DNA from: a bacterium
GTDB lineage: Bacteria > Orphanbacterota > Orphanbacteria > Orphanbacterales > Orphanbacteraceae
Length of the DNA: 64,000 nt
Reading direction: 5' to 3'
Assembly: GCA_025782575.1 (NCBI GenBank)
Contig: JALGYY010000017.1
Coordinates: forward strand, 932,857 to 996,856
Of the stretch, positions 15,694 to 55,790 are shown piece after piece. The notes under the pieces were generated by a model. It worked only from the letters and a program-made list of their open reading frames with translations, was not told the origin of the DNA and made no database searches. The position numbers and the translations under genes are program-made. Numbering within the stretch: position 1 is the first letter of the stretch; every line of letters begins with the position of its first letter.

Positions 15694-17256
15694 CTATCCC
15701 AGATAAGGAAGAGCCTCGAGGCCTTCCCGTTCTTTCTCCCGCCGCTCATCGGGAATCTTGCGATCAATCGACCGATTCCCTTCCCGAAGGGGAGCGATTT
15801 CCTCGAAACCAGGGGTAAAGAGATCGTCAATCGGCACGCCGTCCATATCCCGCGGCACTGTCTCACCCAGAATGCGGAGCAAGGTCGGCGCGAGATCCAT
15901 AAGGCGGGGTCGCTCGCCGGGGGGCGCCCGCTTTCCCGATTTCACATGGGGCCCTTTCACGATCAAAATGCCCCGCCGGTTATGGTAACCCGAAAATGTA
16001 AAGGACGGTTCCCGAAAGAGATTCGTGCCGTCGAAAGGGGAACCACGGCCAAAGAAGAAGCCGGGTCTCGGCTCGAAGAGAAGATCAGGCGCCCTGTCGA
16101 GATAAGGCCCGCTGTAGATTTCATCCCGCCGGTAGACCTCTGCGACCACACGCTCTCCTGTCTCCGAATCGACGAGTCTGGTAAGCTTCCCTTCCAGCTC
16201 AGCAATCAGATCGTCATACTCTCGCCCGCCGTCCACCACCCCCCGTTTGAATGCGCTCTTCGTGTTGATCGTCATTCGTCCACCGAGATGGGTGAAGTAG
16301 AGTACACGGGATCTCGGGAAATCAGTGTCGCAATACCCTTCGTTCCAGAGCCACTTGAGCACAGCCATTTCCCGGCTTACACTCTCGAAGCCATGATCGG
16401 AGGCCACCAGAACGATCGTGTTCTCGTCCGCCCTTTCCAGAAATTCGCCGACTATTTCGTCGATTCGAATCCAGAAATCACGAATTGTATTCTGATATTT
16501 TTCAGCAAGCGCGGGATCAACCCCATGCCTGCCCTCTTCGTCTTCCATGAACTTCCAGAAAAAATGCTGCACTTTATCCGTCCCCATGAACACGACCCAG
16601 AAAAGCTCCCAGTCGTCCTCTTCGAACAGCTCGATTGCGGCACGGAAACGGGCCTCCCGCGTGGCGATCAGATTCCCGAGAAATGCTTCTTCGCTACCTT
16701 CGGGCAGGTACTCCCCATAACGGTCGAGGCGCCAGGGGCCAAGACCTTTTTCCAGTTCGGGAGGCCATGTGTATCCGGTATCACGAAGATGGGGAAATCC
16801 GCCGACCATCTTGCCTGCAATCGGATCGGGAGGAGTTGTAAGGGGGACCGTCATGATGACGGAGGGGCGTTCCGATTCGGTCAGATACTCCCATACAGCC
16901 TTGGCCCGGCGGTCGAGAGCTGTCGCGGGAACGGGCATGAAGCGGTCGCGATCGACGAGCTCGAAGTCATAGATTCCATGCTTGCCCGGATTGACGCCGG
17001 TAATCGCACTTGTCCATGCAGGAGCGGATAGCGGGGGAATCACGGACTCCAGCTCGGCGGAATACCCGTCATTCCTCATGGCGGCAAGATTCGGCAGAAG
17101 GCCCTGATCCATCCAGGGTTCGATGAGGTCGAATGTAGCGCCATCCAGACCGATCACAGCCACGCGGAGGCCTGTCGGGAGAGGCGAATCGGCACACCCG
17201 GTTAAGAGAAGCAGAGCGTAACCGAACAGGATCGCTCTCACTCCGGCAGCTCTCAC
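15694..17256 (-). CDS. AP-superfamily phosphodiesterase/nucleotide pyrophosphatase-like lipoprotein
   Basis: 520-aa member of the alkaline-phosphatase superfamily (PF01663-like). GTG 17256 is preferred as the start because it forms a GTGA overlap with the upstream gene and leads straight into a lipoprotein signal with lipobox LLTGC. Metal and nucleophile blocks look intact: VIGLDGATFD, SAPAWTSAITG (Thr nucleophile), GTDKVQHFFW, ASDHGFESV and GYHNRRGILI. It should sit in the periplasm facing a phosphodiester- or phosphomonoester-type substrate. The C-terminus (GLEALPYLG) is a degenerate form of the LGY tail found on other proteins here. Confidence 0.85.
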   Translation of the reverse strand: MRAAGVRAILFGYALLLLTGCADSPLPTGLRVAVIGLDGATFDLIEPWMDQGLLPNLAAMRNDGYSAELESVIPPLSAPAWTSAITGVNPGKHGIYDFELVDRDRFMPVPATALDRRAKAVWEYLTESERPSVIMTVPLTTPPDPIAGKMVGGFPHLRDTGYTWPPELEKGLGPWRLDRYGEYLPEGSEEAFLGNLIATREARFRAAIELFEEDDWELFWVVFMGTDKVQHFFWKFMEDEEGRHGVDPALAEKYQNTIRDFWIRIDEIVGEFLERADENTIVLVASDHGFESVSREMAVLKWLWNEGYCDTDFPRSRVLYFTHLGGRMTINTKSAFKRGVVDGGREYDDLIAELEGKLTRLVDSETGERVVAEVYRRDEIYSGPYLDRAPDLLFEPRPGFFFGRGSPFDGTNLFREPSFTFSGYHNRRGILIVKGPHVKSGKRAPPGERPRLMDLAPTLLRILGETVPRDMDGVPIDDLFTPGFEEIAPLREGNRSIDRKIPDERREKEREGLEALPYLG

Positions 17257-17873
17257 TTCGATTCGATCGGTCGGAGAACGAGGCTGAGCTCGCACTTCTC
17301 ACAGCTCCCGGGGAACATGGAGGTGATGCCCGGATGATTCGGGCATTGATACTCCATCCTGGCAAGAACCAGATCTTTTCCGCCGCACTTCACACACTTG
17401 GTCGGATAGGGGAACGAGATGTCCGGATGCTCGGGGCAGGTGTAACCCTGAATCTGTCCCAACACGAAAGGTGCCGAAAATCGAATCGGTTCGCCGTCGT
17501 CGGTTTCGAGACCGACAATCTCGAAAGAGAGCTCGCCGAAACCATCCTGCTTACCCGAGAAATCGAACTGGCCGTAAAGCGCCTCACCATGCTGCCGGAA
17601 CCCCTGGCGATCGGTCTCCCCTCCGGCCTCCGTGACCAGAACCGTCCCCTTCAGACCTTCTACGGGGAGAAGATCCCCCTCACGTGTGTGCGGGTAGATT
17701 TCCACACCGACGTTAGAGCAGAGCACCTCCATTTTGTAATCGCCGGCGGCAACGATCACGCCACCATGGGGACCGGACTCCGGCTCACCACCCCCACCGC
17801 ATCCGCCGCAACCGGCCCCGAACAGGGCGGCCACACCGAGAACAAATGCTATTTTTCGATAGACAAGATTCAT
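17253..17873 (-). CDS. Lipoprotein with two heavy-metal-binding zinc-ribbon-like repeats
   Basis: 206-aa predicted lipoprotein (lipobox near LFGAGC, followed by a Gly/Cys-rich linker). The C-terminal half carries two copies of the heavy-metal-binding motif seen in copper and silver efflux proteins: YTCPEHPDISFPYPTKCVKC and YQCPNHPGITSMFPGSCEKC. The second ends in ELSLVL where family members usually have GMDLV. The middle is a beta-rich region without a recognised family. ATG 17873 is chosen because GGAGGAG sits 9 bp before it. Its TGA overlaps the start of the following AP-superfamily gene. It may bind or deliver metal to those metal-dependent enzymes; this is inference. Confidence 0.75.
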   Translation of the reverse strand: MNLVYRKIAFVLGVAALFGAGCGGCGGGGEPESGPHGGVIVAAGDYKMEVLCSNVGVEIYPHTREGDLLPVEGLKGTVLVTEAGGETDRQGFRQHGEALYGQFDFSGKQDGFGELSFEIVGLETDDGEPIRFSAPFVLGQIQGYTCPEHPDISFPYPTKCVKCGGKDLVLARMEYQCPNHPGITSMFPGSCEKCELSLVLRPIESK

Positions 17874-17926
17874 CTGATTACTCCTCCAAACTGCTGCTCC
17901 CACCATAACCGAGCATGGGGGCACGA

Positions 17927-19297
17927 TCAATCGATGTAGCCGAGTGCTTCCAGCTCCCGTCTTACTTTTTCGTCGGCAGGCGCGGTTCGCCCGGACTTCC
18001 CATCCAGAAAACGGACCGCCCGCGTCGCCTGAGATTCCAGAACTTTCTCCAGCCTGGTCTGAAGCTCTGACAAGATATCGAACCGGATCTCATGAAGATC
18101 ATTCAGCTCAAAAGGATCCGCTTCCAGATCGAAGAGAGACGACTTTCCGTCGGACTCGAAAACCGCTTTCCAGCGATCACCCGTCAAAGCGTAGCGCCCG
18201 TACGGATTGTTCCTGCTGCGCCACCGCGCGCTCGATTCGCTGAGAACATACCGGGACGGAATCTCTTCACTCAGCACATCGACCCCGCTTGCCTGCAATG
18301 CCAATGCACCGGCCGGGATCTTCGCCGACAGGCCAAAGAGTGTGGGGAAGACGTCGACAAGGGACATGACTGTCGTCATCCGTTCGGGGGAAACACCCGG
18401 GACACGAATGATGAGGGGCACGTGAAGCTGCTCGTTCCAGTTGAGTCCATGGTGCCAGTGGCCATGCTGGCCGAGCCCTTCACCATGGTCACCCGCGATG
18501 ACTACTACTGTACGCTTCCAGTCGGCCTGCACTCGAAGTCGATCGAGCAGCCTCCCGACCTCGGAATCAACATAGCGAACTTCATTGTCATAATATGACA
18601 GGACGTCCTCAGCGATAAACGTGGCCGGATCCCATTCATCTCCTGTGACGATCTTGTCATCGAACGCCCTCGTCCTCACGAAGAAAGAAGCTCCGTCACC
18701 AGGCGCAAAAAAATCCTGATAATCGGGAGGAGGTTCGTACGGAGCGTGGGGATCGAAGTAGTGCACCCAAAGAAAACAGGCTTTCTCCCCTCTCCGGCTC
18801 TCATTCAACCATCGAAAGACAGCTTCATTCGTTTCCCTCGCGTTCCGCTCGGCTCCATCCGGTTCATTGAACGTATCGAAGCCGGCGTCGATCCCTGTGT
18901 CTTTCTTGATCGGTGTAGCGCTCACGAACGCGGCGGTCTGGTAGCCGGCTTCCTGCGCCACCTCGGCATAGCTCTTCAGGACGGGCGAGGGGATGAACCG
19001 AGAGCCGTCGATATCGGCATTGGCGTGAATGCCGTGCTCGACCGGATAGGTACTCGTCAAGAGTGAAACATGGGACGGGAGGGTCGTCGCAATCGGAGCA
19101 ATACAACGCTCGAACAGGAGTGCATCCTTGGCGAACCGGTCGATGTTCGGCGACGTGTCGCGAAAGTAGCCGTAACACCCGAGGTTTTCCGCACGGATCG
19201 TGTCGATCGTAATCAGAACGACGTTCCATGGGATCGACTCCGAGCCGCAGGAGAGAATCGTCAAACAGAGGATAGTGACCGCCGCCGGGAATCTCAT
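17927..19297 (-). CDS. Sulfatase-like AP-superfamily lipoprotein with C-terminal LGY tail
   Basis: 456-aa sulfatase-like hydrolase. The start ATG 19297 overlaps the upstream stop as TAATG and yields a lipoprotein signal ending TILSC. Family blocks: LITIDTIRAENLGCYGY, the nucleophile region ATTLPSHVSLLTS, IAGDHGEGLGQHG and HHGLNWNEQLHVPL. The nucleophile position holds Thr (TLPSH) instead of the Cys or Ser of C-x-P-x-R, so it is not a formylglycine sulfatase; phosphodiesterase or phosphotransferase chemistry is more likely. The protein ends in RRELEALGYID, the tail discussed in the findings. Confidence 0.85.
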   Translation of the reverse strand: MRFPAAVTILCLTILSCGSESIPWNVVLITIDTIRAENLGCYGYFRDTSPNIDRFAKDALLFERCIAPIATTLPSHVSLLTSTYPVEHGIHANADIDGSRFIPSPVLKSYAEVAQEAGYQTAAFVSATPIKKDTGIDAGFDTFNEPDGAERNARETNEAVFRWLNESRRGEKACFLWVHYFDPHAPYEPPPDYQDFFAPGDGASFFVRTRAFDDKIVTGDEWDPATFIAEDVLSYYDNEVRYVDSEVGRLLDRLRVQADWKRTVVVIAGDHGEGLGQHGHWHHGLNWNEQLHVPLIIRVPGVSPERMTTVMSLVDVFPTLFGLSAKIPAGALALQASGVDVLSEEIPSRYVLSESSARWRSRNNPYGRYALTGDRWKAVFESDGKSSLFDLEADPFELNDLHEIRFDILSELQTRLEKVLESQATRAVRFLDGKSGRTAPADEKVRRELEALGYID

Positions 19298-21407: not shown

Positions 21408-23684
21408 CTATTGGATGTAGCCGAGAGCCCGAAGCTCTTTTAGTACTGATTCATCTGCGCCTTCCGACGCGGGATCATCCTCGCCGGCGTCAGGCACCCC
21501 CCCCTCATACCGATCAATCCATGTAACAGGATTGGCAGCACGATACTTTTCGCTGAGGGCGCCCAGCATCACTTTCCCTTCCCACTCCAGAGACTGGGGA
21601 AGCCCGAGAAGATAGAAAAGGGTCGGCACGACGTCGTAGATGGTCGCCCCTCGAAACCTCTTTCCCTTTGCCGCGTTATCACCCGACAGAATCACGATCC
21701 CGTTGATCCTGTGATTGCCCGACTTGGGCGATCGTTTGGCGATCAGCGATACCGGAATCTCGCTTCCTGGAATTGCCATCACCCCGCCGAGAGCATCAAG
21801 GTTCAGTTCGGCTAAGAGATCCCCTTTACTCGACGTCTCGCCGGCATGGGGATCGCGCCGGATATCCAGGAAAACCGGTGTGCCGATACCGGTCCGAAGA
21901 CCTTTCAGTATGCGCTCCGCCTCGTCGAGGGCACGCGGGAAATCGGCAGGTGACACGATTCCCTCCTCTTCCCGCCCGATCAGGTTCACGAACAACTTCA
22001 GGACATGGGGGCGCTCCGAATCACGCCCTCCATGAAAGCGGGACTTCGAAAGTATGATCTTGCCGTCCGCCTCCGCCGCCCAACCGAGTGAAAGCAGGAG
22101 CGGCTTCGGTTGCACTGAAATCTGGCGGTCGTACCGGTAACCGCTTCCATGGTCGCTCACCACCATTACCGTCGTCATCGGTTCCATGCGGTCGAGGATT
22201 TCCCCGATACACTCATCTACGAACCGCGTGTACGAGTCGATGACTCGAGAGAGTTCGCTCATTTCGTCGCTCCCGATTTCGTAGAGCCAATCGGTCAGCT
22301 TGGGGTTATGCTCGGATCCGTAGAACTTGCGAAACTTGTGCTGGGTGGCGTCGGTTCCTCGAAAGTAGATCGCCATGACATCGGGTTGGCCTTCGTCGAT
22401 ACGCCGCAATGCGAAATCCTTCGTCACGAGATCGCGCAGGAATGTCTGATCGAGTACCTCGACCGCACTCTTCCTTAGATCCGACGCTCCCCGGTCATCT
22501 TCTCCCGGTTGATCACGCAACGGATCGTATGAAGTGAAACGATCCCGCATGTCCCCGATCCGCGGCCGGTAGTTATCGAGCAGGGAATCCAGAAACGGTT
22601 CGTAGCTATCAGGGAAGACGCGCTCGGGAATCGTGTGGTAGGTCGCCCGGTCTGTCAGCATCACTCCGCTCACCGAGTCGGGTGGCCATGACGGATACCA
22701 TGACAGAACATCGACCGGGAGATCGAGATCAGTCAGTACATCCCAATAGGTTGCTTTCTGGCGAATCCGGTTGGTCGTCGTCACCCATCGGCCCCGGGCC
22801 TCGGAATACGAGAGGAAATCGAATACGCGGTGATCCTCGGGACGTCGGGAGGTCGCCACGCTCGTCCAGACCTGGGGCGACTTGATCGGGGGAAGGGTCG
22901 ATCGCAATATGCCGGTGGAGCCGTTTTCAATCAGACGTGCGAGCGCCGGCAGTTCCCCCTTTTCGAAGAGGGGATCGAGGAGATCCCAACCTACGCCGTC
23001 CAGGCAGAGAATGATCACTTTTGAAGCATCCTGCCCGGGCATGATCATGTCCGCCCGATTGCGGCCCCGTTCGGCGATGGCACCTGCAATCGAGACGCAC
23101 AGGATGACGAACAGAATGGCGGTGAGCGCGGGGGCGATCCATGGTATTAGGAGGGCCTCTTTCCGCGGGACGGGACGGGAAATGATGAAAGATATGAGGC
23201 CGGCCGCCAGAAACGAGAGGAGCACCAGCACGAGAAACCCCACGCGGGCGGCGGAACCGGGCAGACGAAAATGGAGGAGCGCCAGAAGAGTGTAGCCGTA
23301 GAAAATGCCGCCCAGTACGACTGTGGAAAGCAGAAAAGTAATGGACCGGCCGTCGGGGCGGCGACCGGCGGCACGGGAAATCAGACCGTGCGCGAGGCCG
23401 GCAAGTGCCCCGGCCAGAGCTCCTCCAAGAGCATAGACTAGAAAGAGATGGAACGGGCTATCCAGGGCGCGCGCAACGGCACCGGAAAGAATCCGCCGGC
23501 TCACTTCGATGATCAGTTCATTGCCGACCAGAGTGTAATTGGGGAACGGGTACTCCAGATAGCAGACGAGAAAACCGACCAACGCGCCGTAGATGAGACC
23601 GACCGCCGTTCCTGCTCGCCAATGTTTTCCCAACACTCGCCAGATCCTTCCCGCGTTCTCGGGAAACAGACTCCCGGGCAGCAA
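21408..23684 (-). CDS. Membrane-anchored AP-superfamily phosphodiesterase with LGY tail (copy 2)
   Basis: 758-aa protein. About 215 N-terminal residues form five or six TM helices, followed by a periplasmic AP-superfamily domain with intact blocks: ILCLDGVGWD, SPQVWTSVATS (Thr nucleophile), YFRGTDATQHKF, VVSDHGSGY and GNHRINGIVIL. It ends in LKELRALGYIQ. It is a clear paralogue of the gene directly upstream: same architecture, shared phrases such as VWTSVATSRRPEDH and VDVLSWYPSWPPDS. The TTG at 23684 follows immediately after the upstream TAA; a GTG 17 codons later, with GGAAGG before it, is an alternative start. Confidence 0.85.
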   Translation of the reverse strand: MLPGSLFPENAGRIWRVLGKHWRAGTAVGLIYGALVGFLVCYLEYPFPNYTLVGNELIIEVSRRILSGAVARALDSPFHLFLVYALGGALAGALAGLAHGLISRAAGRRPDGRSITFLLSTVVLGGIFYGYTLLALLHFRLPGSAARVGFLVLVLLSFLAAGLISFIISRPVPRKEALLIPWIAPALTAILFVILCVSIAGAIAERGRNRADMIMPGQDASKVIILCLDGVGWDLLDPLFEKGELPALARLIENGSTGILRSTLPPIKSPQVWTSVATSRRPEDHRVFDFLSYSEARGRWVTTTNRIRQKATYWDVLTDLDLPVDVLSWYPSWPPDSVSGVMLTDRATYHTIPERVFPDSYEPFLDSLLDNYRPRIGDMRDRFTSYDPLRDQPGEDDRGASDLRKSAVEVLDQTFLRDLVTKDFALRRIDEGQPDVMAIYFRGTDATQHKFRKFYGSEHNPKLTDWLYEIGSDEMSELSRVIDSYTRFVDECIGEILDRMEPMTTVMVVSDHGSGYRYDRQISVQPKPLLLSLGWAAEADGKIILSKSRFHGGRDSERPHVLKLFVNLIGREEEGIVSPADFPRALDEAERILKGLRTGIGTPVFLDIRRDPHAGETSSKGDLLAELNLDALGGVMAIPGSEIPVSLIAKRSPKSGNHRINGIVILSGDNAAKGKRFRGATIYDVVPTLFYLLGLPQSLEWEGKVMLGALSEKYRAANPVTWIDRYEGGVPDAGEDDPASEGADESVLKELRALGYIQ

Positions 23685-25931
23685 TTAGTCAATATAACCC
23701 AGGGCGCGAAGCTCTTCCATCACGCTTTCCTCCCCCCCCGATCCCTCTGCCGCGTGTCCGGAACCGCCGCCGGTTCCGTCGTAGGATCTTACATATCGAA
23801 CCGGTCGACCGTGCCGCCATTCGCCGTCCAATGCGTCGAGAATCGGCTTCCCTTCCCAGGCCAGCGAAAGTGGGAGCCCCATCAGATGGAAGAGGGTGGG
23901 CACTACATCGTAGACCGTCGCTCCCCGGACTCGTCCCCCCTGATTAGACGGCGTCCCGGCGAGGACGAATACTCCCCCCATCCTGTGATTTCCGGAGCGA
24001 GAAAACCGGGCGACCTCTTCTGTAATCGCCACAAGAGAGTCGCCAATCGCGATCTCTCCTCCCACGGCGCCCGCGTTGATCCTGCAAACGAGATCGCCGT
24101 TACTGTACCGGGTGCCCGCACGCTTCCCCATTTCCACAGATGAAAAAACGGCATCACCACCTGTGGTGCGGAGCCCGCCGAGCCGGTCGAGCATTTGGGC
24201 GATTAGTTTTTCATACTCGGTCCGCGAAACGGTCCCCGATGTGTGCCTGCCGACCAGGTTGACATGAATTCGAAGGGAATTCGTCTTCGCTTTGTCCCAG
24301 TGGGCAACGACTTTCGATCCGGCCCTGTCAATCCGATTGCCCTCCCCTTTCGCCCAACCGAGAAGACGGAGCAGCCGGCCTTCCTGCAGGTGGCTCTGCC
24401 GGTCATACGAGTAGCCGCTCGCATGGTCGGAGACCAGAAGGACCGCTGTATTCTCTCCGGATAGATCGAGAATCGAACCGATCTCCCTGTCGACGTAGCG
24501 CAGGTAAGCGTTCACGATATCGCCAAAAAACCCCATCTCCTGATCTGTCATTTCGAATAGACGGCTCGCCAGCCAGGGATCGTTTCTAGCTGCGTGATAC
24601 TTGCGGAATTCGTGTTGCACCGTGTCGGTACCCCGGAAATAGACGGTGAGGAGATCGGGTTGACGCTTTCTCATGATCCGTCTCGCCAGGGCGGACGTGA
24701 CGAGATCCCGCAGATAGGACTGGTCGAGTATGTACATATCGAATCGACGGAGCGCGGCCGGGCCGTTCGAACCAAGGTCATCTTCGTCTTCATCCGGCAC
24801 GTAGCTCGTCAGATCCAGGCGAAGCGCCGGCAGGCGCGACCGGAAGTCCGTGAGCAACGTGTCGAGTACCGGTTCCAGCTGCTCCGGAAACACTCGTCCT
24901 GTCACGTTGGGATAAGTGGCTCGATCGGACAGCATGATTCCGGGAATGGAGTCGACCGGCCATGATGGATACCACGATAATAGGTCGACGGTGAGACCGA
25001 GACTCCCGATGATCTCCCAGAAAGTCGGTTGGAGACGGTGCTTGTTCGTTACCGGAATAAACCTGCCCGGCTGGCTCGATTCAGTGATGAATCCCTGGAT
25101 ACCATGATCTTCGGGGCGACGAGAAGTGGCGACGCTCGTCCAGACGACGGGTGATTCAATCGGCGGCAGGAGTGAACGGAGCACGCCGCAACTTCCATTG
25201 GCAATCAGTCTGTCCAGGTTAGGGAGATCGCCGGTACCGAGAAGCGGTTTGATTGTCGGCCAGTCTATGCCATCCACTGCGAACAGAATGATTTTGTGCG
25301 ACGGTTCGCCGAAGGTCGGGTAGTCGATCAGTGATGCACGCCGCGCGCGGTTCTCCGTAACTATCGTAAGGGCAAATAGAACGAGGAGACCGGAGAACAC
25401 CAGAACAGGGATCCGGCGAGATCGGACGGGTTCGCGCAGGGGGAGGAGTCTGCCGGCGAGCCAGCCGACACCGGTTGCGAGAAGCAGCGCCGCCAGAAAG
25501 AAGGCCACCCAGAGCGGTTGCCACATGCGGGGGGGGACTTGAAGCGTCCGCACCATGACCGCCGGATAGAAAAAGAGCAGAAACGTGGCGAGTGTCGTGA
25601 GCGGGATCCGGAAACGCGTTCGTCTGCCGGGGCTGATCCGGAACGCCGCCGCCGCGATCTGAACGAGGAGACCGAGCGCTCCCCCGGCGAGTGCGCCCGA
25701 AAGAGCGTAAAGCAGAAAGAGAGGATAGGGGCGGTCGGCAAGTGAAGCGACTTCGCCCGGGACAATCGTCCGGAGCGCCTCGATCAGGAGGGCGTTCCCG
25801 GCGACCGTATAAGTCGAAAAGGGTATTTCCAGCAGGGCGAAGAAAAGCCCGGCAAGGGCGCCCGTAAGCAACCCCGCGGCGAGACCGGCCTGCAGGTATC
25901 GATCCTTGCTCATGCCGAGTGATGGTAACAT
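23685..25931 (-). CDS. Membrane-anchored AP-superfamily phosphodiesterase with LGY tail (copy 1)
   Basis: 748-aa paralogue of the following gene and probably the first gene of the 25.9-14.7 kb minus operon. About six TM helices (residues 15-200) precede the catalytic domain with LFAVDGIDWP, SPVVWTSVATS, YFRGTDTVQHEF, LVSDHASGY (the usual Gly after DH is Ala) and GNHRMGGVFVL. The tail MEELRALGYID ends the protein. ATG 25931 is chosen; a second ATG lies six codons in. The membrane part plus an external AP-type domain recalls lipid- or glycan-modifying phosphotransferases, but the TM region is not that of LtaS or EptA, and the substrate is unknown. Confidence 0.85.
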   Translation of the reverse strand: MLPSLGMSKDRYLQAGLAAGLLTGALAGLFFALLEIPFSTYTVAGNALLIEALRTIVPGEVASLADRPYPLFLLYALSGALAGGALGLLVQIAAAAFRISPGRRTRFRIPLTTLATFLLFFYPAVMVRTLQVPPRMWQPLWVAFFLAALLLATGVGWLAGRLLPLREPVRSRRIPVLVFSGLLVLFALTIVTENRARRASLIDYPTFGEPSHKIILFAVDGIDWPTIKPLLGTGDLPNLDRLIANGSCGVLRSLLPPIESPVVWTSVATSRRPEDHGIQGFITESSQPGRFIPVTNKHRLQPTFWEIIGSLGLTVDLLSWYPSWPVDSIPGIMLSDRATYPNVTGRVFPEQLEPVLDTLLTDFRSRLPALRLDLTSYVPDEDEDDLGSNGPAALRRFDMYILDQSYLRDLVTSALARRIMRKRQPDLLTVYFRGTDTVQHEFRKYHAARNDPWLASRLFEMTDQEMGFFGDIVNAYLRYVDREIGSILDLSGENTAVLLVSDHASGYSYDRQSHLQEGRLLRLLGWAKGEGNRIDRAGSKVVAHWDKAKTNSLRIHVNLVGRHTSGTVSRTEYEKLIAQMLDRLGGLRTTGGDAVFSSVEMGKRAGTRYSNGDLVCRINAGAVGGEIAIGDSLVAITEEVARFSRSGNHRMGGVFVLAGTPSNQGGRVRGATVYDVVPTLFHLMGLPLSLAWEGKPILDALDGEWRHGRPVRYVRSYDGTGGGSGHAAEGSGGEESVMEELRALGYID

Positions 25932-29386: not shown

Positions 29387-30205
29387 CTAGACCTCTACGC
29401 CCACCACACCCTTGATCGCAAACCCGAACAGTACGGAAACCACGAAGAAGACGAGCAGCCAGTGCAGGCTGTAGCCCCATGCTTTTGTGTCGCGATCAGG
29501 GTACTGGAATGAGATCGCCTGGAATGCCGAGCCCTTGGGGATGGGTTTCTCGGCGGGCGCCAACCAGACGGCCAGGATCCCCGCCTGATCTCGTCCTTCG
29601 GCAATTTTCGTAATCTTGTCGCCCACGACGATTCGCTTGGTCACGGTCTCGCCGGCCACGGTGATCTGGAGATCGTACTCCCCCTCGTTTTCGGCGCGCA
29701 GTCGCCAGTCCACTTCATGTTCCCTCGGAATCCGAACCGGTAGGGCACTGATCGCGATGCCGGCCGGCACTTCGAGAGTCACATCACCCGGGTCAACGCT
29801 CTCACTGACCATGACTTTGAGAAGCGTCGATTCGCCTGGTAGAAGCGGCCGACGCTCATAGCGAACATCCAACTGAACAAGAATCGCCACCACAGGGAGC
29901 AGAACTACGATCAGAGGCGGAACGGCAAGCGACAGATACTTCATGTTGGCCAGAAACGCCTTTCGCTGCGCAGCCATCTGGAGTCCCATGTCTTCCTGGA
30001 AGATTCGAATCTCGTAGATATAGGCGCTGATTTTAGACTTCGCAGCAGCAATCGCTTTCTGGTTGGACGTGAATTTCCAGACAACGAGCATGACGGCGCC
30101 GGTAAGAATCGATACGACAGATAGCCCGACGAACGGATGCATACCGCCGAAAAGGCCGATCAAGCCGTCGAAGAAAGCGGTCACCGCTTTGACGATAGGC
30201 CACAT
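29387..30205 (-). CDS. Oxa1-superfamily (EMC3/DUF106-like) membrane protein with inserted beta domain
   Basis: 272-aa protein and last gene of the sat operon. The first TM helix (SVVSILTGAVMLVVWKF) leads into a cytoplasmic helical hairpin (SNQKAIAAAKSKISAY, RIFQEDMGLQMAAQRKAF) and a second, Pro-containing TM pair (VPPLIVVLLPVVAI). This order matches the core of EMC3/TMCO1/YidC-type insertases. A beta-rich periplasmic section of about 100 residues follows, then a final TM helix. The family assignment rests on topology and a few residues, so it is tentative. If right, it could help insert or fold the membrane-linked enzymes of this operon. It starts 34 bp after the small RHH-like gene. Confidence 0.5.
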   Translation of the reverse strand: MWPIVKAVTAFFDGLIGLFGGMHPFVGLSVVSILTGAVMLVVWKFTSNQKAIAAAKSKISAYIYEIRIFQEDMGLQMAAQRKAFLANMKYLSLAVPPLIVVLLPVVAILVQLDVRYERRPLLPGESTLLKVMVSESVDPGDVTLEVPAGIAISALPVRIPREHEVDWRLRAENEGEYDLQITVAGETVTKRIVVGDKITKIAEGRDQAGILAVWLAPAEKPIPKGSAFQAISFQYPDRDTKAWGYSLHWLLVFFVVSVLFGFAIKGVVGVEV

Positions 30206-30239: not shown

Positions 30240-30434
30240 CTACGAGATATAGCCGAGACCCTGCAGTTTCTTTTTGATTTCCTCTTCCGACGCCCCTTCT
30301 TCCACCGAGCTCAGCTCTTTCTCGAGGGCATGAACGACAAACTCATCGACCGAAGAATATCCGGCGATTTCCGCGTACTTCTTTACTCGGACGAACAGGT
30401 CCTTTGTCAGTTTGACTTTTGGTCCACCAAACAT
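30240..30434 (-). CDS. Small ribbon-helix-helix-like protein with C-terminal LGY tail
   Basis: 64-aa protein. Residues 5-42 (KVKLTKDLFVRVKKYAEIAG and SSVDEFVVHALEKEL) have the beta-strand, helix, turn, helix pattern of CopG/Arc-type RHH domains, usually dimeric DNA binders. The rest is an acidic linker and a tail ending KKKLQGLGYIS, nearly the same as on the RHH protein at the other end of the operon and on APS kinase. AAGGAG precedes the ATG; the gap to the upstream AP-superfamily gene is 22 bp. It may be a regulator or, given the tail, a dimeric adaptor. The DNA-binding role is inferred from the fold pattern only. Confidence 0.7.
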   Translation of the reverse strand: MFGGPKVKLTKDLFVRVKKYAEIAGYSSVDEFVVHALEKELSSVEEGASEEEIKKKLQGLGYIS

Positions 30435-30456: not shown

Positions 30457-32505
30457 CTAAAAAACGGAAGCGCCGATCATGTCAGGCCCCTTCTCGATTC
30501 CGAAGAACTCGAGAATGGTCGCTGTCAGATCGTACAGCCTGGGATTCGGATTAGTTATCTCCCGGTTTACGATCAGAATTCCGGGTACGAGATCTTCGGC
30601 GATACAGTGATCACCGCTCCACTTGCCGGTATTGTCCCCGAACCACTCTATCGGGAATTCGCCGAGGGCCGATTCATTCGATCCTCGATAGGTAAGCGCG
30701 TACCCGACATTCATGTCAGGAGCGTATTTTGCGAAGGCACCGGAATAGACATCGTCACTCTTATAGACTTCTTTGATAGCGTACATACCGGTCACCGGAT
30801 CTTCGATTCCCTTCAACTTCTGCACGAGTTCCTCGATCAACTCATCACGCTCCGCGCCAGGCGCCACTGTCCCGAACTTCTCGCGCCCCCTCACGTTGAT
30901 GTAAAGGCCGTTAATCCCGAGCGCGTAGGCCCGTGTGTTCTTCCAGTCCACATTCATGAAGAAGTCAGACGTTTCGCGCGCCGCCTGGGAAGGATCCTTG
31001 AGCGTCAGATAGCCATTATCGGCAAGCCAGGAATTCAGATGCATTTCCCGATACCACGGCGCGAATCCATGATCCGACATGACGACGATCGTCGCATCCC
31101 CTTCCAGTTCATCGAGGGCCACCCCGACCGCCTCATCGAGCCGCTTGAATATGTTGACCACCACGTCGGAGTGCTTGAGCGATTCTTCATCAGCCGCCGG
31201 ATGGTTCGGATCGAACGCCCGCCACATCATGTGAGTCTGCTGGTCGAGACTGGAAAAATAGAAGAACAGGAAACCCCACTCTTCCTGTGCGAAATCCCTG
31301 ATCATCGCTTCGAAGAGCATCATACGCTCATCGAGCACCATCCCCGCCTGGTGGATGTACTCGGAGTCATCGAAGATGCCCCCTTCGAGAGCCTTGGAAT
31401 CTTCGGGCATGCCCTGCGTGTAAAAACGGCCCAGTCGATCAGAGAGTTCGACCGACCAATTGTCGGGGGTCGAAACAGGCTGCGCCGGATTGGCGGGATC
31501 GATCTGCACGGGCGTTACGTAGAGGCCGAACTGGGGGGAGACCGACCGGAGGTAGAGCCGGGCGATCCCGTTGATCGCGAGCCCCATGGGAGCTGCGACC
31601 GGCTTCACCTTTGCGCCGAATCCTTCCTCGCCCAGCATGTAGTACTCCACCGGAACCCAGTCGCTCCATTCACCTTCGGCGAGTAGAACTTCCTCTCCGT
31701 CGCCGAGAACGATCTTTGCGGTCTTGTTCTCTTCATCTCGGTAGATGCGAATGGGGCACTCCGCCTTCTTCCCCTTCTGACTGAACGGATTCCCCGGCCC
31801 GGGGATTCCCCCTTTCGCCACACCACGATCGAAATAGATATCGATCACCTCGCCGCCGGAAATGTCGTCGGCATCCTCAGGAGGGTGTGTGGTGAAATAG
31901 GTAAACGTTCCGGGCGTCCCCTGCATATCAGGCGTACCCATCCCGGACAGCGATCTTGCTTCGCTTTCGGTCGGAGGATAATTCGCGGGGATCTTGAAGA
32001 TCGTTGTCGGCACCCCGCCTTCGTCCAGATACTCCCAGAACGCTTTCCCCTCACGAAGATTAATGACTTCGCCGCCGCCGAGAGGGAGCTGCCAGTCCCC
32101 CCACAGCTTGATTGATTTATCCGAACCTACCGCCTCTGACGTGGACAGGTAGGGTAGATAGGTCTCCGGATCGCGATGGATGAAATCGAAAATATTATGG
32201 CCACCCGGATTCTGGCCGGTAATAAAGTTCGACCACGCGACCGGGCTCTGGGGCGGAATGCTCGTGCCGAGAGTGGTGAACTCCCCGCTTGCGATGAGCC
32301 GCCGGAAGTTCGGCATATAGCCGGCGTCCAGATGTTCCCGAAGTTGCTTGGGATCCATGCCGTCCAGGCCGATCACCACCATCTTCTTTTTCTCGGGAGC
32401 CGCCTCGCCCGGACTCGTGAGCATGGCGATCGCCAGGCCTCCCGTCAGAAGCGTTGCGATACCTGCGGGCTTCCACCAGGACTTCACTATCTTGAGACTA
32501 ACCAT
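30457..32505 (-). CDS. AP-superfamily phosphodiesterase-like protein, exported (sat operon)
   Basis: 682-aa protein with an N-terminal hydrophobic signal or anchor (IATLLTGGLAIAMLTSP). AP-superfamily blocks look intact: VVIGLDGMDP (D48), SPVAWSNFITG (Ser nucleophile, S92), FSSLDQQTHMMW, VMSDHGFAPW and SGDHCIAEDLVPGIL. An insertion of roughly 150 residues between the nucleophile and the next metal block is shared with the adjacent 737-aa protein, so the two are sister paralogues. Its start overlaps the upstream gene by 8 bp, with AGGAGAAG as ribosome site. No LGY tail: it ends in IGASVF. Substrate unknown; periplasmic location predicted. Confidence 0.83.
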   Translation of the reverse strand: MVSLKIVKSWWKPAGIATLLTGGLAIAMLTSPGEAAPEKKKMVVIGLDGMDPKQLREHLDAGYMPNFRRLIASGEFTTLGTSIPPQSPVAWSNFITGQNPGGHNIFDFIHRDPETYLPYLSTSEAVGSDKSIKLWGDWQLPLGGGEVINLREGKAFWEYLDEGGVPTTIFKIPANYPPTESEARSLSGMGTPDMQGTPGTFTYFTTHPPEDADDISGGEVIDIYFDRGVAKGGIPGPGNPFSQKGKKAECPIRIYRDEENKTAKIVLGDGEEVLLAEGEWSDWVPVEYYMLGEEGFGAKVKPVAAPMGLAINGIARLYLRSVSPQFGLYVTPVQIDPANPAQPVSTPDNWSVELSDRLGRFYTQGMPEDSKALEGGIFDDSEYIHQAGMVLDERMMLFEAMIRDFAQEEWGFLFFYFSSLDQQTHMMWRAFDPNHPAADEESLKHSDVVVNIFKRLDEAVGVALDELEGDATIVVMSDHGFAPWYREMHLNSWLADNGYLTLKDPSQAARETSDFFMNVDWKNTRAYALGINGLYINVRGREKFGTVAPGAERDELIEELVQKLKGIEDPVTGMYAIKEVYKSDDVYSGAFAKYAPDMNVGYALTYRGSNESALGEFPIEWFGDNTGKWSGDHCIAEDLVPGILIVNREITNPNPRLYDLTATILEFFGIEKGPDMIGASVF

Positions 32506-34711
32506 TCGCTATCTTCTCCTGAGGGGTGGGCTCGCGACGCTCTTCAGTCTGATCCGGCCGGAAGAATGACCGGCCCTGCATATGTCTCGGCGCGGCAATA
32601 CCGAAGAGATCGAGCACCGACGCGGACATGTCAATAATGCACGGATTCTCACGGACGAGCCTCTTGCTCGAGAAGAGAATGCCGGGTACGAGCCGCCAAT
32701 CCGTGCAATGGTCACCGCTCCACGCCTTCGGATTATCGTGGATCACCCGGCCGTCCGCTTTCCCGACCGCGGCGGCCCATGACTGCCTGTAGTTGTGATT
32801 GAAGCCGGGCAGCAGATCGGGACCATTCCCGACATATGGCCCGTCGTAGAGCTCGTTCGTAATAAAGACTTCCGTGATCGCCACATCATTGTTCCGCTCG
32901 GAATCGCGAAGCCCGGACAGCTTCTCTTTGATCTCCCGGCGTAATGCCTGAGCTTCTTCACCCGGTTCGACGATCCCCTGCCCTTCACGACCCTTGATAT
33001 TCAGATAGATTCCGGTGAGACCGAAACTGTAGGCCTTTGTCTTCGACCAGTCGACGCCGCGAAACCAGTCGGAGCAATCTGTGCCGCCATCCTTCATATA
33101 CATGTAGCCATTCTCGACGAGCCACGAATTCAGATTGAATCCCCGTGCGAACTGAGTGAATCCATGATCGGACATCACCATCAGGACCGTCTTCTTGTCC
33201 TTCTCCGTGATTCTCATGATCCGCCCGAGCATCTCATCCATGCGCTCATAGAGATTGTCGATCGCTCCCTTGTGGACTTCTGTATCCTGGCCTTGATTGG
33301 CGGGATGATCGTCGAGCTTGTATCGATGAAACATGTGCTGAATCCGGTCGGTTCCGTCGAACACGCAGACCAGCAGTCCTTTCCTGCATTGACTGAGAGC
33401 GTTGAAGAACATCTTCTCCCGCTCCTCATGCGTGAGCCAGGCCTGTTCCAGAAACGCCTGCTCATCGATCACCCGCTCATTCAGCCCCCAGGTATCCTCG
33501 CAGAACCCGAGTGTGGCGTAGCTTCCCTGCAGCTTCGAAAGATAAGTGGAATAATAGGCCGGATGGGAAATCGGCATGGCCGGCTTCTCCGGGTCGATCT
33601 GCACCGGCGAAACATAAAGTTTAAAGTGAGGCGTCATCTCCATGACATAGAAGCGAACAAGTCCCCAGACTTTGATTCCCAGCCCCGGCTTGAACGCCGT
33701 GCGGATCCAGGGGGAATACTCTTTAGGCTTCAGCGTGAATTTCTCACCATTAAACTCGAAGTGGGCAACCCCTTTGGCTTCATCAATCTTGATCTTGAAC
33801 GGCTCTCGGAGCTCCTCGTTATCTTTCGACATCGAATTTTCGGGCCCGGGAACGTAGGCTTCGACTATGTCATTGACCTTCTTGATACGGTATCGAACAC
33901 CGCCGGTCGCTTCACCCAGTTCACTTTCATCGTCCGTATAATAGGTAAACGTCCCCTGGGATCCCTTGAGATCGGGAACGCACATCGCCGAGAGAAGAAC
34001 CCCTTTGTGTTTTTCCGGCGGGAAAGTAATCGGCACTCGCAGTACATGCGAAAAAATGCCGTAATCGCCGAGAATCCTCCAGAACGGCACCGACTTCCGG
34101 AGCATGCGGATCACCGGCTTGCCTAGAGGGATCTTGTATTTGCCGAGATTCAGCGTTCGGGAGACATTCCCGATAAAGACCGATGCGAGATCGGGCAGAT
34201 AGGTTTTGGGATCGCGATTCAGGAAATCGAACTGGTTGTGCCTCGAGGGATCGACACCCGTAGCGAATGACGACCAGGCGACCGGGGACATGGCGGGCAT
34301 CACGGTTTCGAGCTGCTGGAAATCGCCGCTCTCCGCGAGCTCCTCGAAGTTGGGCATTTTCCCTTCGTCCATGTACTTCCGGCAATAGTTGGGATCGAGT
34401 CCGTCGAGTCCGACAATCACCACGCGTTCGGTGTCCGTTTTGGGCGCTCGTTTCTTGAAGATCAACTTCCAGAGGAAGCGGATCGGCCAGAGCAGGATCG
34501 AAGCCATCGCCAGTACGAACGTGACGAAGAAGACTGCGAATGAAGAGAGAAATGCAAAGCCCGCACCCGGCCCGATGTACGCGTCTACCGGTGCCGGCGT
34601 GGCGGCGAAAAGTGCCACCAGCGCTACGAGAAAAAAGAGGCCCCGCGGAGCCGGAACAGAACCGGGCGCGATCTGTCCGCCCCATCCGCCCGTTCCTTTC
34701 AGTCTAGCCAC
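32498..34711 (-). CDS. AP-superfamily phosphodiesterase-like protein, membrane-anchored (sat operon)
   Basis: 737-aa paralogue of the following gene. The GTG at 34711 is preferred over a longer ATG form because AGGGGG precedes it and it gives the same 8-bp overlap as at the next junction. Two hydrophobic segments (FFLVALVALFAATP and SSFAVFFVTFVLAMASILL) anchor it. Catalytic blocks: VIVGLDGLDP, SPVAWSSFATG (Ser nucleophile), FDGTDRIQHMFH, VMSDHGFTQF and SGDHCTDWRLVPGIL, all apparently complete. The C-terminus is a charged tail without LGY. It is co-transcribed with sat and cysC, suggesting a link to sulfate or nucleotide chemistry, but the reaction is not known. Confidence 0.83.
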   Translation of the reverse strand: MARLKGTGGWGGQIAPGSVPAPRGLFFLVALVALFAATPAPVDAYIGPGAGFAFLSSFAVFFVTFVLAMASILLWPIRFLWKLIFKKRAPKTDTERVVIVGLDGLDPNYCRKYMDEGKMPNFEELAESGDFQQLETVMPAMSPVAWSSFATGVDPSRHNQFDFLNRDPKTYLPDLASVFIGNVSRTLNLGKYKIPLGKPVIRMLRKSVPFWRILGDYGIFSHVLRVPITFPPEKHKGVLLSAMCVPDLKGSQGTFTYYTDDESELGEATGGVRYRIKKVNDIVEAYVPGPENSMSKDNEELREPFKIKIDEAKGVAHFEFNGEKFTLKPKEYSPWIRTAFKPGLGIKVWGLVRFYVMEMTPHFKLYVSPVQIDPEKPAMPISHPAYYSTYLSKLQGSYATLGFCEDTWGLNERVIDEQAFLEQAWLTHEEREKMFFNALSQCRKGLLVCVFDGTDRIQHMFHRYKLDDHPANQGQDTEVHKGAIDNLYERMDEMLGRIMRITEKDKKTVLMVMSDHGFTQFARGFNLNSWLVENGYMYMKDGGTDCSDWFRGVDWSKTKAYSFGLTGIYLNIKGREGQGIVEPGEEAQALRREIKEKLSGLRDSERNNDVAITEVFITNELYDGPYVGNGPDLLPGFNHNYRQSWAAAVGKADGRVIHDNPKAWSGDHCTDWRLVPGILFSSKRLVRENPCIIDMSASVLDLFGIAAPRHMQGRSFFRPDQTEERREPTPQEKIANG

Positions 34712-38123: not shown

Positions 38124-39275
38124 TTATTGATCCTTGTAGAACGACATGAGGAGCTCCGCCACCTCAGGACGAGTGAACTCGGGCGGAGGCATCTTGCCCT
38201 CGGCCAGCATGGCCCGTACTTTCGTCCCGCTCAGGAACACATGATCTTCCGATCCGTGTGAGCAGGTCTTCGACGATGCCATATTGCCGCATTTCTTACA
38301 GAAGAACGAGTGATCAAAAAACATCGGCGTAATATCGATTTCGTAGCGATCGAATTCGGCGAAGATATAGTGCGCGTCGTACGTGCCGTAGTAGCTCCCT
38401 ACGCCGGCGTGGTCACGGCCCACGATGAAGTGGGAGCATCCGTAGTTCTTGCGGACCAATGCATGAAATACCGCTTCCCTCGGGCCGGCATACCGCATCG
38501 CGGCCGGAAAGATGGAAAGGGCGGTCCTGGTGGACGGATAGTAATTCTCGAACAGGATCTTGTAGCACTCCATCCGGATCTCAGCCGGGATGTCCCCCTT
38601 CTGAGTCTCACCGACCAGCGGGTGAACGAGCAGCCCGTCCACGATCTCGAGGGCGCACTTCTGCAGGTACTCATGAGCCCTGTGGATCGGATTGCGGGTC
38701 TGGAAGGCGACAATCGTCTCCCACCCTTTGGCCTTGAACAGAACGCGCGTCTCTTTGGGATCGAGCCGGAAATTCTCAAATCGATTGTGCTGGGGCCGCT
38801 TGAGAAGCGAGATCGTGCCGCCAAGGTACGTGCCTATGATCGTGTCGAGATAGCGAACGCCCGGATGAGCATCATCGTTCGTCAGGAGTACTTTGGAGGC
38901 CTCCTGCTGCTTGTCGACTCCGTATTTCTCCTCGAGGTCCATCACGGCGAGAATTTCACCATCCGATTCGACGAGGGCGATCTGATTCCCCTCGACGAAC
39001 TCATCGCCGTCACCCTCTTTCACCGCAAGCACCACCGGAATCGTCCAGGGGAGCCCTTTGGCAAGACGTTTGAGGTCGAGCACGGAAAGATAGTCTTCCC
39101 GGCCCATGAAGCCTTCCAGGGGGCTCATGGCCCCGATGGCGATCATCTCGAGATCGGCGGTCTCCCGATCGTTCAGCGTGAGCTTCGGGAGAGAAGGAGC
39201 GAGGGATTCCAGCTGTTCGCGCTCCTTGCCCTCCGCGATGCGGTTGATCAGTTTTCCGCCGTGTGCCTTGATCAT
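38124..39275 (-). CDS. sat: Sulfate adenylyltransferase (ATP sulfurylase)
   Basis: 383-aa ATP sulfurylase of the Sat type, which makes APS and pyrophosphate from ATP and sulfate. Active-site blocks are complete: QTRNP at 192-196, HRAH at 198-201, and GRDHAGVGSYYGTYDAHYIF. A CKKCG...C.H cluster near residue 330 suggests a structural zinc. No C-terminal kinase domain is fused; APS kinase is a separate gene downstream. No aprAB or dsr genes are present, so an assimilatory or PAPS-forming role is more likely than dissimilatory sulfur respiration. It starts 32 bp after the RHH gene with an AAAGGA ribosome site. Confidence 0.95.
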   Translation of the reverse strand: MIKAHGGKLINRIAEGKEREQLESLAPSLPKLTLNDRETADLEMIAIGAMSPLEGFMGREDYLSVLDLKRLAKGLPWTIPVVLAVKEGDGDEFVEGNQIALVESDGEILAVMDLEEKYGVDKQQEASKVLLTNDDAHPGVRYLDTIIGTYLGGTISLLKRPQHNRFENFRLDPKETRVLFKAKGWETIVAFQTRNPIHRAHEYLQKCALEIVDGLLVHPLVGETQKGDIPAEIRMECYKILFENYYPSTRTALSIFPAAMRYAGPREAVFHALVRKNYGCSHFIVGRDHAGVGSYYGTYDAHYIFAEFDRYEIDITPMFFDHSFFCKKCGNMASSKTCSHGSEDHVFLSGTKVRAMLAEGKMPPPEFTRPEVAELLMSFYKDQ

Positions 39276-39307: not shown

Positions 39308-39532
39308 TTATTCCAGGTAACCCAGGTTCTTCAGTTTCTGACGGATGCCGCTCAACTCCTCCTGCGAAAAGGTATCGTTGTTCGTTTCCGCCGCCGCCGT
39401 CGCCCCCACCAGATCGCGGAGGACGTAGACTATGAAATCGGTAGGCGAGCTAAACCCTGATTCTTCAATGATTTCTGCGATCCTCCGGTAAAGGGGGCGC
39501 GGAATCTTGATGGTGACCCGGTTCTCTTTCAT
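39308..39532 (-). CDS. Ribbon-helix-helix (CopG-like) protein with C-terminal LGY tail, first gene of sat operon
   Basis: 74-aa protein. Residues 5-45 (RVTIKIPRPLYRRIAEIIEE, then FSSPTDFIVYVLRDL) show a clear RHH pattern: basic beta strand, two helices with a Ser-Pro/Thr cap. RHH proteins act as dimers and usually repress their own operon. The tail after a flexible linker ends IRQKLKNLGYLE, matching APS kinase and the other small RHH protein. An 11-bp tandem repeat directly upstream (39540-39583) is a plausible binding site, so autoregulation of the sat operon is likely. It is the first gene of the unit. Confidence 0.78.
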   Translation of the reverse strand: MKENRVTIKIPRPLYRRIAEIIEESGFSSPTDFIVYVLRDLVGATAAAETNNDTFSQEELSGIRQKLKNLGYLE

Positions 39533-39539
39533 CCGACCT

Positions 39540-39583
39540 TGGCTCCAGTAAGACTCTAATCAGACTCTAATCGCACTCCAATA
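39540..39583 (-). promoter_or_regulatory. 11-bp tandem-repeat array, candidate operator of the sat operon
   Basis: Two perfect 11-bp copies (plus-strand AGACTCTAATC at 39551-39561 and 39562-39572) are flanked on each side by a degenerate copy (39540-39550 and 39573-39583) sharing the CTC-x-A-x-T core in the same phase. The 11-bp period places each copy on about the same face of DNA, as expected for cooperative binding by RHH dimers. It lies 8-51 bp upstream of the RHH start codon. No convincing -10/-35 pair was found in the 114-bp gap. Confidence 0.5.
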
Positions 39584-39646
39584 TGACTACCACAAGGCTC
39601 AGATCATAGCCATATGCCGCGCCCCTGTCAATTCAGAATTTGGAAT

Positions 39647-41886: not shown

Positions 41887-41931
41887 AGAATTCCCAGCCT
41901 GGGTAGGAGCGGCGAGGGAGGTCAGCTGACG

Positions 41932-43070: not shown

Positions 43071-43096
43071 CTCTCGAAATTCAATCAGTGCTCCGA

Positions 43097-54408: not shown

Positions 54409-54422
54409 TGTCCCGACCCGGG

Positions 54423-55790
54423 TCAGTCGACGTAACCGAGAGCACGTAGTTTTTTAATCACTTCCTCTTCCATGTCGACCACTTCCTCCCCCCGGGGGTT
54501 TCCGCCGGCCTGATCGAGGCTCGCGTTGTACCAATCGAGAAGCCTGGTCGCCATGTCGCTGACTAGCTCGGTTCTCCGTTTCTCCAGATTGTCTTCTTCC
54601 CATCGATCAAGAGTGAGGTCGTAAAGTTGTATGGACCGCGTCGTTTCGCAGTACATGAATTTGTAACGATCATCAAGAACCGCTTTCCACTCCACCCCGC
54701 GAAAAAGAGATTCGGCGAAACGATCCATGCTCATTTCATCACTCTCATCCCCGCGAGCCATCGATAGAAGCGAGCGCCCCTGAAACGCGTCAGGCACCGG
54801 CAGACCCATCGCATCTAATACGGTGGGCATGACATCGATCAGACCGACCCGGCGATCGACCTCCCGCGGTTCGATGGAGCCGGGAAACTTCATGATGAGA
54901 GGGACATGAATCAACTCATCATAAAGGGTGTGGCCATGTTCGAAACTCCCGTGATCCCAGAACTCCTCGCCGTGATCGGCGGTAATGACCACCGCGGTCT
55001 CTTCCGATAGCCCCAGCCGGGCGAGATCGTCCAGAAACAAGCCGCACTCGTGGTCAACCGCGGCAATCTCGGCGCGATAGAGGGCGCGGGCAAACTCGCG
55101 AATCTCCGGCTCGGGCATTTTCCCCAGCCACTTAGCCAGATCGCCGAACGGCGGCTCCATCGGCTGGGGCAGACCGGTCAGAAAACGGGATCGAAACGGT
55201 TCGGGGGGATCGTAGTCCATGTGAGCATCGAAGAGATGGATGAGAAGAAAGAATCTCTCCTCCTGGTGCTCCCGAATCCACTCACCGGCAGCAGCAAAAG
55301 TCTCCGCCGCAGTCCTCAGTTTGAGATTGGAAGCGGGGAAATAATCGAAAGTGTCGAAGCCGCGATCGAGACCGAGCCGAGGGTCGAGAAAGGCGCAGTT
55401 CACGAAGGCGCCGGTTGTGATCCCCGATTCCTGCAGCGACTCAGCTGCCGTCTTGACCCCGTCCCTGATCCGCGAAAAGTCAGGATAGCGGCCGACTGCT
55501 CCGTGAAGGGTCGGATACAGGGAAGTGAGCAGCGTGGTGACCGACGGCAATGTCCAGGGCGCCTGGGCGGTGGCTGACTGGAATCGGACCGCCCCCTCGC
55601 TGAATCTGTCAATCTCGGGTGTGACCGGGCCGTTCGGCGTCGTTCTCCCCACCTCGTCCCATCGACAGGTATCGATCAGGATCAGGACCGTGTTCCGGGC
55701 ATCGACCGGCTCATCCCGGGCGCACGAAAAGGGGATCAACAGGAGCAACAGCAGGAGGATCAACGATTTCGATGTTTTCTCCGTATCCAT
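54423..55790 (-). CDS. Sulfatase-like AP-superfamily lipoprotein with LGY tail
   Basis: 455-aa lipoprotein (lipobox near LIPFSC). Sulfatase-like blocks: VLILIDTCRWDEVG, the nucleophile region APWTLPSVTTLLTS, ITADHGEEFWDHG and YDELIHVPLIMKF. As in the relative at 17.9-19.3 kb, the nucleophile position is Thr rather than the Cys/Ser needed for formylglycine, so it is unlikely to be a classical sulfatase. It ends in EEEVIKKLRALGYVD. It stands alone on the minus strand between two plus-strand glycan genes. The ATG at 55790 is chosen; an in-frame ATG lies six codons upstream. Confidence 0.84.
   Translation of the reverse strand: MDTEKTSKSLILLLLLLLIPFSCARDEPVDARNTVLILIDTCRWDEVGRTTPNGPVTPEIDRFSEGAVRFQSATAQAPWTLPSVTTLLTSLYPTLHGAVGRYPDFSRIRDGVKTAAESLQESGITTGAFVNCAFLDPRLGLDRGFDTFDYFPASNLKLRTAAETFAAAGEWIREHQEERFFLLIHLFDAHMDYDPPEPFRSRFLTGLPQPMEPPFGDLAKWLGKMPEPEIREFARALYRAEIAAVDHECGLFLDDLARLGLSEETAVVITADHGEEFWDHGSFEHGHTLYDELIHVPLIMKFPGSIEPREVDRRVGLIDVMPTVLDAMGLPVPDAFQGRSLLSMARGDESDEMSMDRFAESLFRGVEWKAVLDDRYKFMYCETTRSIQLYDLTLDRWEEDNLEKRRTELVSDMATRLLDWYNASLDQAGGNPRGEEVVDMEEEVIKKLRALGYVD

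Follow-up and report, generated by a model that had tools for sequence, protein, structure and literature searches.

A C-terminal LGY tail shared by alkaline-phosphatase-superfamily enzymes and the APS kinase and small RHH-like proteins of a bacterial sulfate-activation operon

A short C-terminal motif, L-x-x-L-G-Y followed by an aliphatic residue and here called the LGY tail, was studied in a 64,000-nucleotide stretch of an Orphanbacterota genome (GenBank assembly GCA_025782575.1, contig JALGYY010000017.1, positions 932,857 to 996,856; the window). As the original prediction had supposed, the tail is common to unrelated folds, namely enzymes of the alkaline-phosphatase (AlkP) superfamily, adenosine 5'-phosphosulfate (APS) kinase, and small ribbon-helix-helix (RHH)-like proteins, and it is conserved far beyond chance. 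The non-AlkP carriers, not the sulfatases, are the surprising part: all three are encoded in one minus-strand cluster of the window (39532 to 29387). We tentatively propose, with somewhat less than even confidence, that the tail is a docking helix that acts in cis on most AlkP enzymes and in trans towards the tail-less AlkP enzymes of this operon. As predicted from the sequence, it consists of a flexible acidic linker and then an amphipathic helix of about 12 residues closed by Gly-Tyr-aliphatic.

A six-frame scan of the window for stop-anchored L-x-x-L-G-Y-x(0-3) recovered exactly seven ends, all on the minus strand, together with a degenerate eighth, LEALPYLG at 15694, also on the minus strand. 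All had been listed in the original prediction, and the carrier types named there (lipoprotein sulfatase-like enzymes, polytopic phosphodiesterases, and an APS kinase, besides two RHH-like proteins treated below) match, for these enzymes, the Pfam and transmembrane (TM) results. PF00884 sulfatases and PF01663 type I phosphodiesterases belong to one fold superfamily, that of AlkP. By Pfam and NCBIfam, the eight carriers comprise five AlkP-superfamily proteins, one APS kinase, and two small RHH-like proteins. Those at 17927 and 54423 are PF00884 sulfatases with lipobox-like N termini, those at 21408 and 23685 carry a PF01663 phosphodiesterase domain preceded by five predicted TM segments, and that at 15694 matches PF01663, in each case above the cut-off. 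The tails outside the cluster are as follows:

17927..17989, minus strand: LGY tail of a lipoprotein sulfatase (gene 17927-19339), ending in ADEKVRRELEALGYID before the stop
21408..21470, minus strand: LGY tail of a 5-TM PF01663 phosphodiesterase (gene 21408-23684), ending in ADESVLKELRALGYIQ before the stop
23685..23747, minus strand: LGY tail of a 5-TM PF01663 phosphodiesterase (gene 23685-25931), ending in GEESVMEELRALGYID before the stop
54423..54485, minus strand: LGY tail of a lipoprotein sulfatase (gene 54423-55808), ending in MEEEVIKKLRALGYVD before the stop
15694..15756, minus strand: degenerate tail LEALPYLG on a PF01663 lipoprotein (gene 15694-17295)

The gene order of the operon is RHH1 - SAT - PDED - APSK - PDEC - PDEB - PDEA - RHH2 - MP:

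39308..39532, minus strand: RHH1, 74-residue RHH-like protein, likely operon autoregulator, ATG at 39532, ending in SQEELSGIRQKLKNLGYLE before the stop
38124..39275, minus strand: SAT, ATP sulfurylase (PF01747 and PF14306), tail-less
36730..38109, minus strand: PDED, cytosolic AlkP-superfamily protein (PF01663), tail-less
36055..36657, minus strand: APSK, APS kinase (PF01583), tailed, with the appended linker and tail at residues about 177-200
34704..36035, minus strand: PDEC, cytosolic AlkP-superfamily protein (PF01663), tail-less
32498..34744, minus strand: PDEB, AlkP-superfamily protein with N-terminal hydrophobic segments (PF01663), tail-less
30457..32505, minus strand: PDEA, AlkP-superfamily protein (PF01663), tail-less
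30240..30434, minus strand: RHH2, 64-residue RHH-like protein, ATG at 30434, ending in SEEEIKKKLQGLGYIS before the stop
29387..30205, minus strand: MP, membrane protein, tail-less, constant partner of RHH2 and a tail-independent bait

The APS kinase was identified above the cut-offs of PF01583 (1e-61), TIGR00455, and NF002059. RHH1 scored 17.0 bits against PF01402, below the cut-off of 20.5, and its homologue at locus L098 scored 27.8 bits, above it; RHH2 matched no Pfam family, PF01402 included, and is RHH-like by pattern only. The label "RHH-like" is thus a fair one for the two proteins.

In the whole 4.88-Mb genome, the pattern LxxLGY[FLIMV]x-stop occurred 29 times, compared with 6 times for the reversed pattern used as a control. 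Twenty-six of the 29 matches are real gene ends; the other three (FIVLGYVL), at the ends of contigs C12, C16, and C17, are copies of a single repeat and were rejected as tails. Leaving out the extra residue additionally recovered the APS kinase and two sulfatases. With the repeat copies removed, the only non-AlkP carriers in the genome are the APS kinase, RHH1, and RHH2 of the window. The genome-wide anchored search that had been suggested therefore places the tail far above chance but confines it to AlkP proteins and one operon. The objection that it might be at background frequency outside sulfatases holds only by half, as background was reached outside the AlkP enzymes and one AlkP-containing sulfate-activation operon. 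Likewise, in 18 genomes the carriers were AlkP enzymes or sulfate-operon members, besides short chance open reading frames (ORFs) and one truncated ORF, and in cyanobacteria with ordinary APS kinases the pattern was at background level only. Short ORFs with the pattern at L154, L184, L205, and L208 were dismissed as chance.

The C-terminal part was read for 43 of the 45 sulfatase matches in the genome. The motif was present in 40 of these, either terminal or immediately followed by a C-terminal extension; in this group the tail, which the original prediction called common on such proteins, is therefore a feature of the sulfatase family as a whole. In 35 of the 43 it is terminal, although some of these run on for a few residues, and in five it is internal and stands directly before a C-terminal extension; one protein had a degenerate motif and two had none. 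Tetratricopeptide (TPR) repeats followed the internal motif in all four extensions tested with Pfam, and one sulfatase ends in LGYLDRKKGSKR, its motif not being at the extreme C terminus. Most tail copies sit 0 to 2 residues from the stop. A position always at the extreme C terminus, as originally claimed, is thus true of all seven window tails but not of the five sulfatases with an internal motif.

Tailed APS kinases were found in like neighbourhoods on contigs labelled Eisenbacteria, Gemmatimonadetes, Poribacteria, delta-proteobacteria, Planctomycetota, Omnitrophota, Acidobacteria, Krumholzibacteriia, Latescibacterota, Armatimonadetes, Sumerlaeota, CSSED10-310, and others. At the operon loci, from a first scan made with tail-containing peptides as queries, APS kinase was tailed in 46 of 80 cases, mostly those with AlkP neighbours, and the RHH counts, likewise from tail-containing queries, were 19/19 for RHH1 and 13/13 for RHH2. 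No tail was seen on the four operon AlkP proteins (0/87), SAT (0/38), or MP (0/13), and the cytosolic "LP"-type AlkP proteins in or near the operon loci were all tailed (7/7). With an AlkP neighbour present versus absent, there were 39 versus 6 tailed and 4 versus 30 untailed APS kinases (p 1e-11). Two stop-to-stop ORFs of 670 residues ending in a tailed APS kinase (L265 and L274) were rejected as artefacts overlapping PDEC.

In some lineages, DUF2061 membrane proteins are also tailed (L053, L054, L060, L258, and L259); those at L258:10486-10833 and L259:2629-3060 lie in sulfate operons of Desulfobacterota-like genomes. At L187 (Hydrothermota; about 3000-3815), a CysD/PAPS-reductase-like protein (PF01507; PAPS, 3'-phosphoadenosine 5'-phosphosulfate) ends in LRSLGYM and is encoded downstream of two tailed RHH genes. 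These DUF2061 and CysD-like carriers are again sulfate-activation proteins.

Tail-containing queries could bias the counts, and two tests were therefore made without the tail as bait. The first was a whole-sequence search for APS kinases, in another phylum, of 118 genomes around a Syntrophobacterales metagenome-assembled genome (MAG). Among the APS kinases whose surroundings were read, an AlkP gene lay within about 6 kb of seven of the eight tailed ones and of none of the 32 untailed ones (Fisher p 4e-7). The second used the tail-less MP as query against two 199-genome sets, one centred on an Acidobacteria MAG and the other on a Planctomycetota MAG; a small RHH2-type gene adjoined MP in 59 of the 60 loci read, and all 59 of these RHH2 proteins were tailed, most often with GLGYIS. 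A tail-less PDEA was directly upstream in almost all of the MP/RHH2 loci read. At L357, the sole MP locus without RHH2, PDEA is followed directly by MP. As the genomes are related, the counts in these tests do not represent fully independent events.

The tail of the APS kinase comes after a complete core, at which untailed homologues stop. Alignments with solved relatives reach no further than about residue 182, most of them ending by 163-176, and the solved archaeal chain 2yvu, which we take to be from A. pernix, ends at the core. The tail of this kinase is thus appended outside the fold. AlphaFold2 models of the window sulfatase at 54423 and of one cytosolic AlkP protein consist of a confidently predicted core joined by a low-confidence linker to a separate helix; Foldseek with the sulfatase model returned ordinary sulfatases only. 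The tail logos are YSeEEEEkIKeRLkdLGYI for APS kinase, fS.EEL.aiR.KLRNLGYL for RHH1, SEEEIKKKLQGLGYI for RHH2, YSdEE.e.ve.RLRgLGYL for the cytosolic LP-type AlkP proteins (Chloroflexota and CSSED10-310), and lDeE..e.LRALGYi for the exported sulfatases. When a profile was built from the part of the APS kinase tails that precedes the LGY core and was scored against composition-matched shuffles, the RHH1, RHH2, DUF2061, and cytosolic AlkP tails matched it beyond composition (z 5 to 21). The tails of this cytosolic class are probably homologous to one another, and the exported sulfatase class may or may not be homologous to them.

A putative operator lies between a promoter and RHH1:

39542..39590, minus strand: putative operator, tandem 11-bp repeat with units GTAGT/GGAGT/AGAGT/AGAGT/GGAGC
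39603..39631, minus strand: sigma70-like promoter TTGACA-17-TATGAT, immediately preceding the operator

In 20 loci, GAGT/ACTC pairs upstream of RHH1 were spaced by 11 bp nine times (0.2 pairs expected from a shuffled control) and by 22 bp three times, and no pair had a spacing of 5-10 or 12-21. The array is a single occurrence in the genome, with no wider RHH1 regulon. RHH1 thus has repeated predicted operator sites near its own promoter, as CopG/RHH regulators do, and by analogy with CopG/MetJ-type RHH proteins, it most likely regulates its own operon. In the passages that describe the equivalent cluster of Pyrococcus yayanosii, the first gene encodes a putative CopG factor proposed to regulate that cluster (PMC8268124).

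Under the docking proposal, the tail would be a functional part of AlkP-superfamily enzymes, both sulfatases and type I phosphodiesterases, most of which carry it on the same chain. The AlkP enzymes of the operon, which end at the core without a tail, would be supplied with it in trans by APS kinase, RHH1, and RHH2, and in some lineages also by a DUF2061 or CysD-like protein. Such tails would dock onto the tail-less AlkP enzymes and gather PAPS synthesis and the operon's own regulator with the phosphodiesterases, so that regulator and kinase would compete for, or share, one site. The carriers include cytosolic proteins (APS kinase, RHH1, RHH2, and cytosolic AlkP) and proteins outside the cytosol (lipoprotein sulfatases and 5-TM phosphodiesterases), and because they lie on both sides of the membrane, it is unlikely that one soluble receptor sorts them all. 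Of the partners, only the AlkP domain is found on both sides, and the tail is nearly universal on AlkP enzymes outside the operon and absent from those inside it, where their neighbours carry it; AlkP docking would therefore be the most economical explanation. The fuller version is rather unlikely to hold in all its parts: a cis/trans docking code in which the helix has been relocated to the kinase and RHH proteins of a PAPS-synthesis operon of many phyla, and in which autoregulator and enzyme share a site on tail-less phosphodiesterases, coupling sulfate activation to its own expression.

Several observations weigh against AlkP docking. The APS kinase is untailed or has a degenerate tail beside AlkP genes at L066, L067, L070, and L085, and it is tailed without an AlkP gene nearby at L063, L069, L090, L099, and L260. 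The sulfatase tails reach z 4.3 against the APS kinase tail profile, with a mean barely above the shuffled one, and the two tail classes could be convergent because little is shared beyond (acidic)-LRALGY. In the two cis models, the pLDDT of the tail helix is only intermediate, about 76 and 81. At three of the exceptional loci (L066, L067, and L070; Planctomycetota), the APS kinase has a degenerate tail or has lost it, no PDED or PDEC homologue was detected in the operon, and the RHH1 and RHH2 tails are kept beside PDEB and PDEA. Such loci might serve as a natural test of how individual tails and phosphodiesterases pair up.

The tail could instead dock on a different adaptor, in the operon perhaps MP or SAT, with the sulfatases using a separate extracytoplasmic receptor. 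RHH2 and MP are nearly inseparable neighbours, the DUF2061 carriers are membrane proteins, and one soluble receptor cannot reach both cytosolic and exported carriers. However, many tailed APS kinases have no MP nearby and some have no SAT, and no single non-AlkP gene goes with all carriers; we regard an adaptor as rather improbable. Pairing of the tails with one another, to build hetero-oligomers of APS kinase, RHH proteins, and AlkP enzymes, would suit the amphipathic pattern of the logo (I-9, L-5, L-2, Y0, and I+1, with the opposite face charged). Both APS kinases and RHH proteins belong to dimeric families, which would add avidity. Self-association is nevertheless unlikely, as it leaves unexplained both the absence of tails from the operon AlkP proteins and their near universality on exported sulfatases.

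It is quite doubtful that the LGY end is simply the last structural helix of each fold or a helix cap reached independently. L-x-x-L-G-Y could plausibly act as a helix C-cap and is similar to helix 1 of peptidoglycan-binding-like domains (weak PF08823 matches). In two Aminicenantes APS kinases (L094 and L113) the core helix itself finishes in LGY, core APS kinases from other lineages may also end in ...KLNDLGYIE, and the sulfatase tails are unlike the operon tails upstream of the LGY core. Against this, the APS kinase tail follows a complete core and a variable linker and is missing from relatives, and the tail is common to the RHH, DUF2061, and CysD-like proteins of one operon and tracks AlkP neighbours. 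A signal of the chain end for stability, or for degradation or sorting as proposed originally, would fit the closeness of most copies to the stop, but some copies are internal, ahead of TPR domains, or are followed by longer extensions at the C terminus, and the carriers occupy both cytosol and periplasm and are limited to one functional network. The internal motif of the TPR-fused sulfatases means that a free C terminus is not required, which argues against a PDZ-, degron-, or sortase-type reading, and a chain-end signal is highly improbable.

The comparison with encapsulation peptides made in the original prediction stands as an analogy of form. The cargo peptides of bacterial microcompartments (BMC) and encapsulins are likewise short amphipathic helices on flexible linkers at the ends of unrelated pathway enzymes, but the LGY tail requires no shell and its carriers include exported lipoproteins. 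Literal encapsulation was excluded: among 13 tail-bearing genomes, the BMC-H shell protein (PF00936) was found in 5 and an encapsulin shell (PF04454) in none. In kind, the tail would belong with pathway docking peptides. Elsewhere in the same genome, outside the window, C13:150252-152798 has three strong PF00936 matches in 2.5 kb, unrelated to the LGY tail. In the window, just upstream of the operon region (41731-44443), a gene for a MauG-type di-haem cytochrome c peroxidase adjoins multihaem cytochrome genes.

RHH-family type II antitoxins (ParD/CcdA) bind a partner encoded next door through a C-terminal segment and are autoregulated via repeated operators. RHH1 and RHH2 would similarly combine an RHH-like part with a partner-binding C-terminal segment, but the operon contains no toxin, and their tail recurs on a metabolic kinase and on further proteins. 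SGSH_C-type sulfatases fused to C-terminal TPR domains likewise have the LGY motif, just after SGSH_C; there the motif is internal, whereas in the operon it is on non-AlkP proteins. The RHH-sulfurylase-phosphodiesterase-APS kinase gene set is already known from archaea. As described in part of one paper, the assimilatory sulfate cluster of P. yayanosii has the order copG - ATP sulfurylase - DHH pApase - type I phosphodiesterase - APS kinase (PMC8268124). It thus likewise begins with a CopG/RHH gene followed by sulfurylase, AlkP phosphodiesterase, and APS kinase, the order of the bacterial core RHH1-SAT-PDED-APSK. Compared with that description, the window operon has no pApase, three more AlkP proteins, and RHH2 and MP in addition, as well as the LGY tail, which the passages on the archaeal cluster do not mention (PMC8268124). 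A limited search of open-licence literature turned up no account of the tail, none of the bacterial operon that includes RHH2 and MP, and none of the connection to sulfatases.

The shared tail becomes a testable interaction code, and the operon links sulfate activation to several AlkP phosphodiesterases in many bacterial phyla. If AlkP docking is true, interaction partners would be predictable from tail sequence alone, two small regulator-like families would gain a function, and the helix at the C terminus of most of these bacteria's sulfatases would have a regulatory or assembly role not yet considered.

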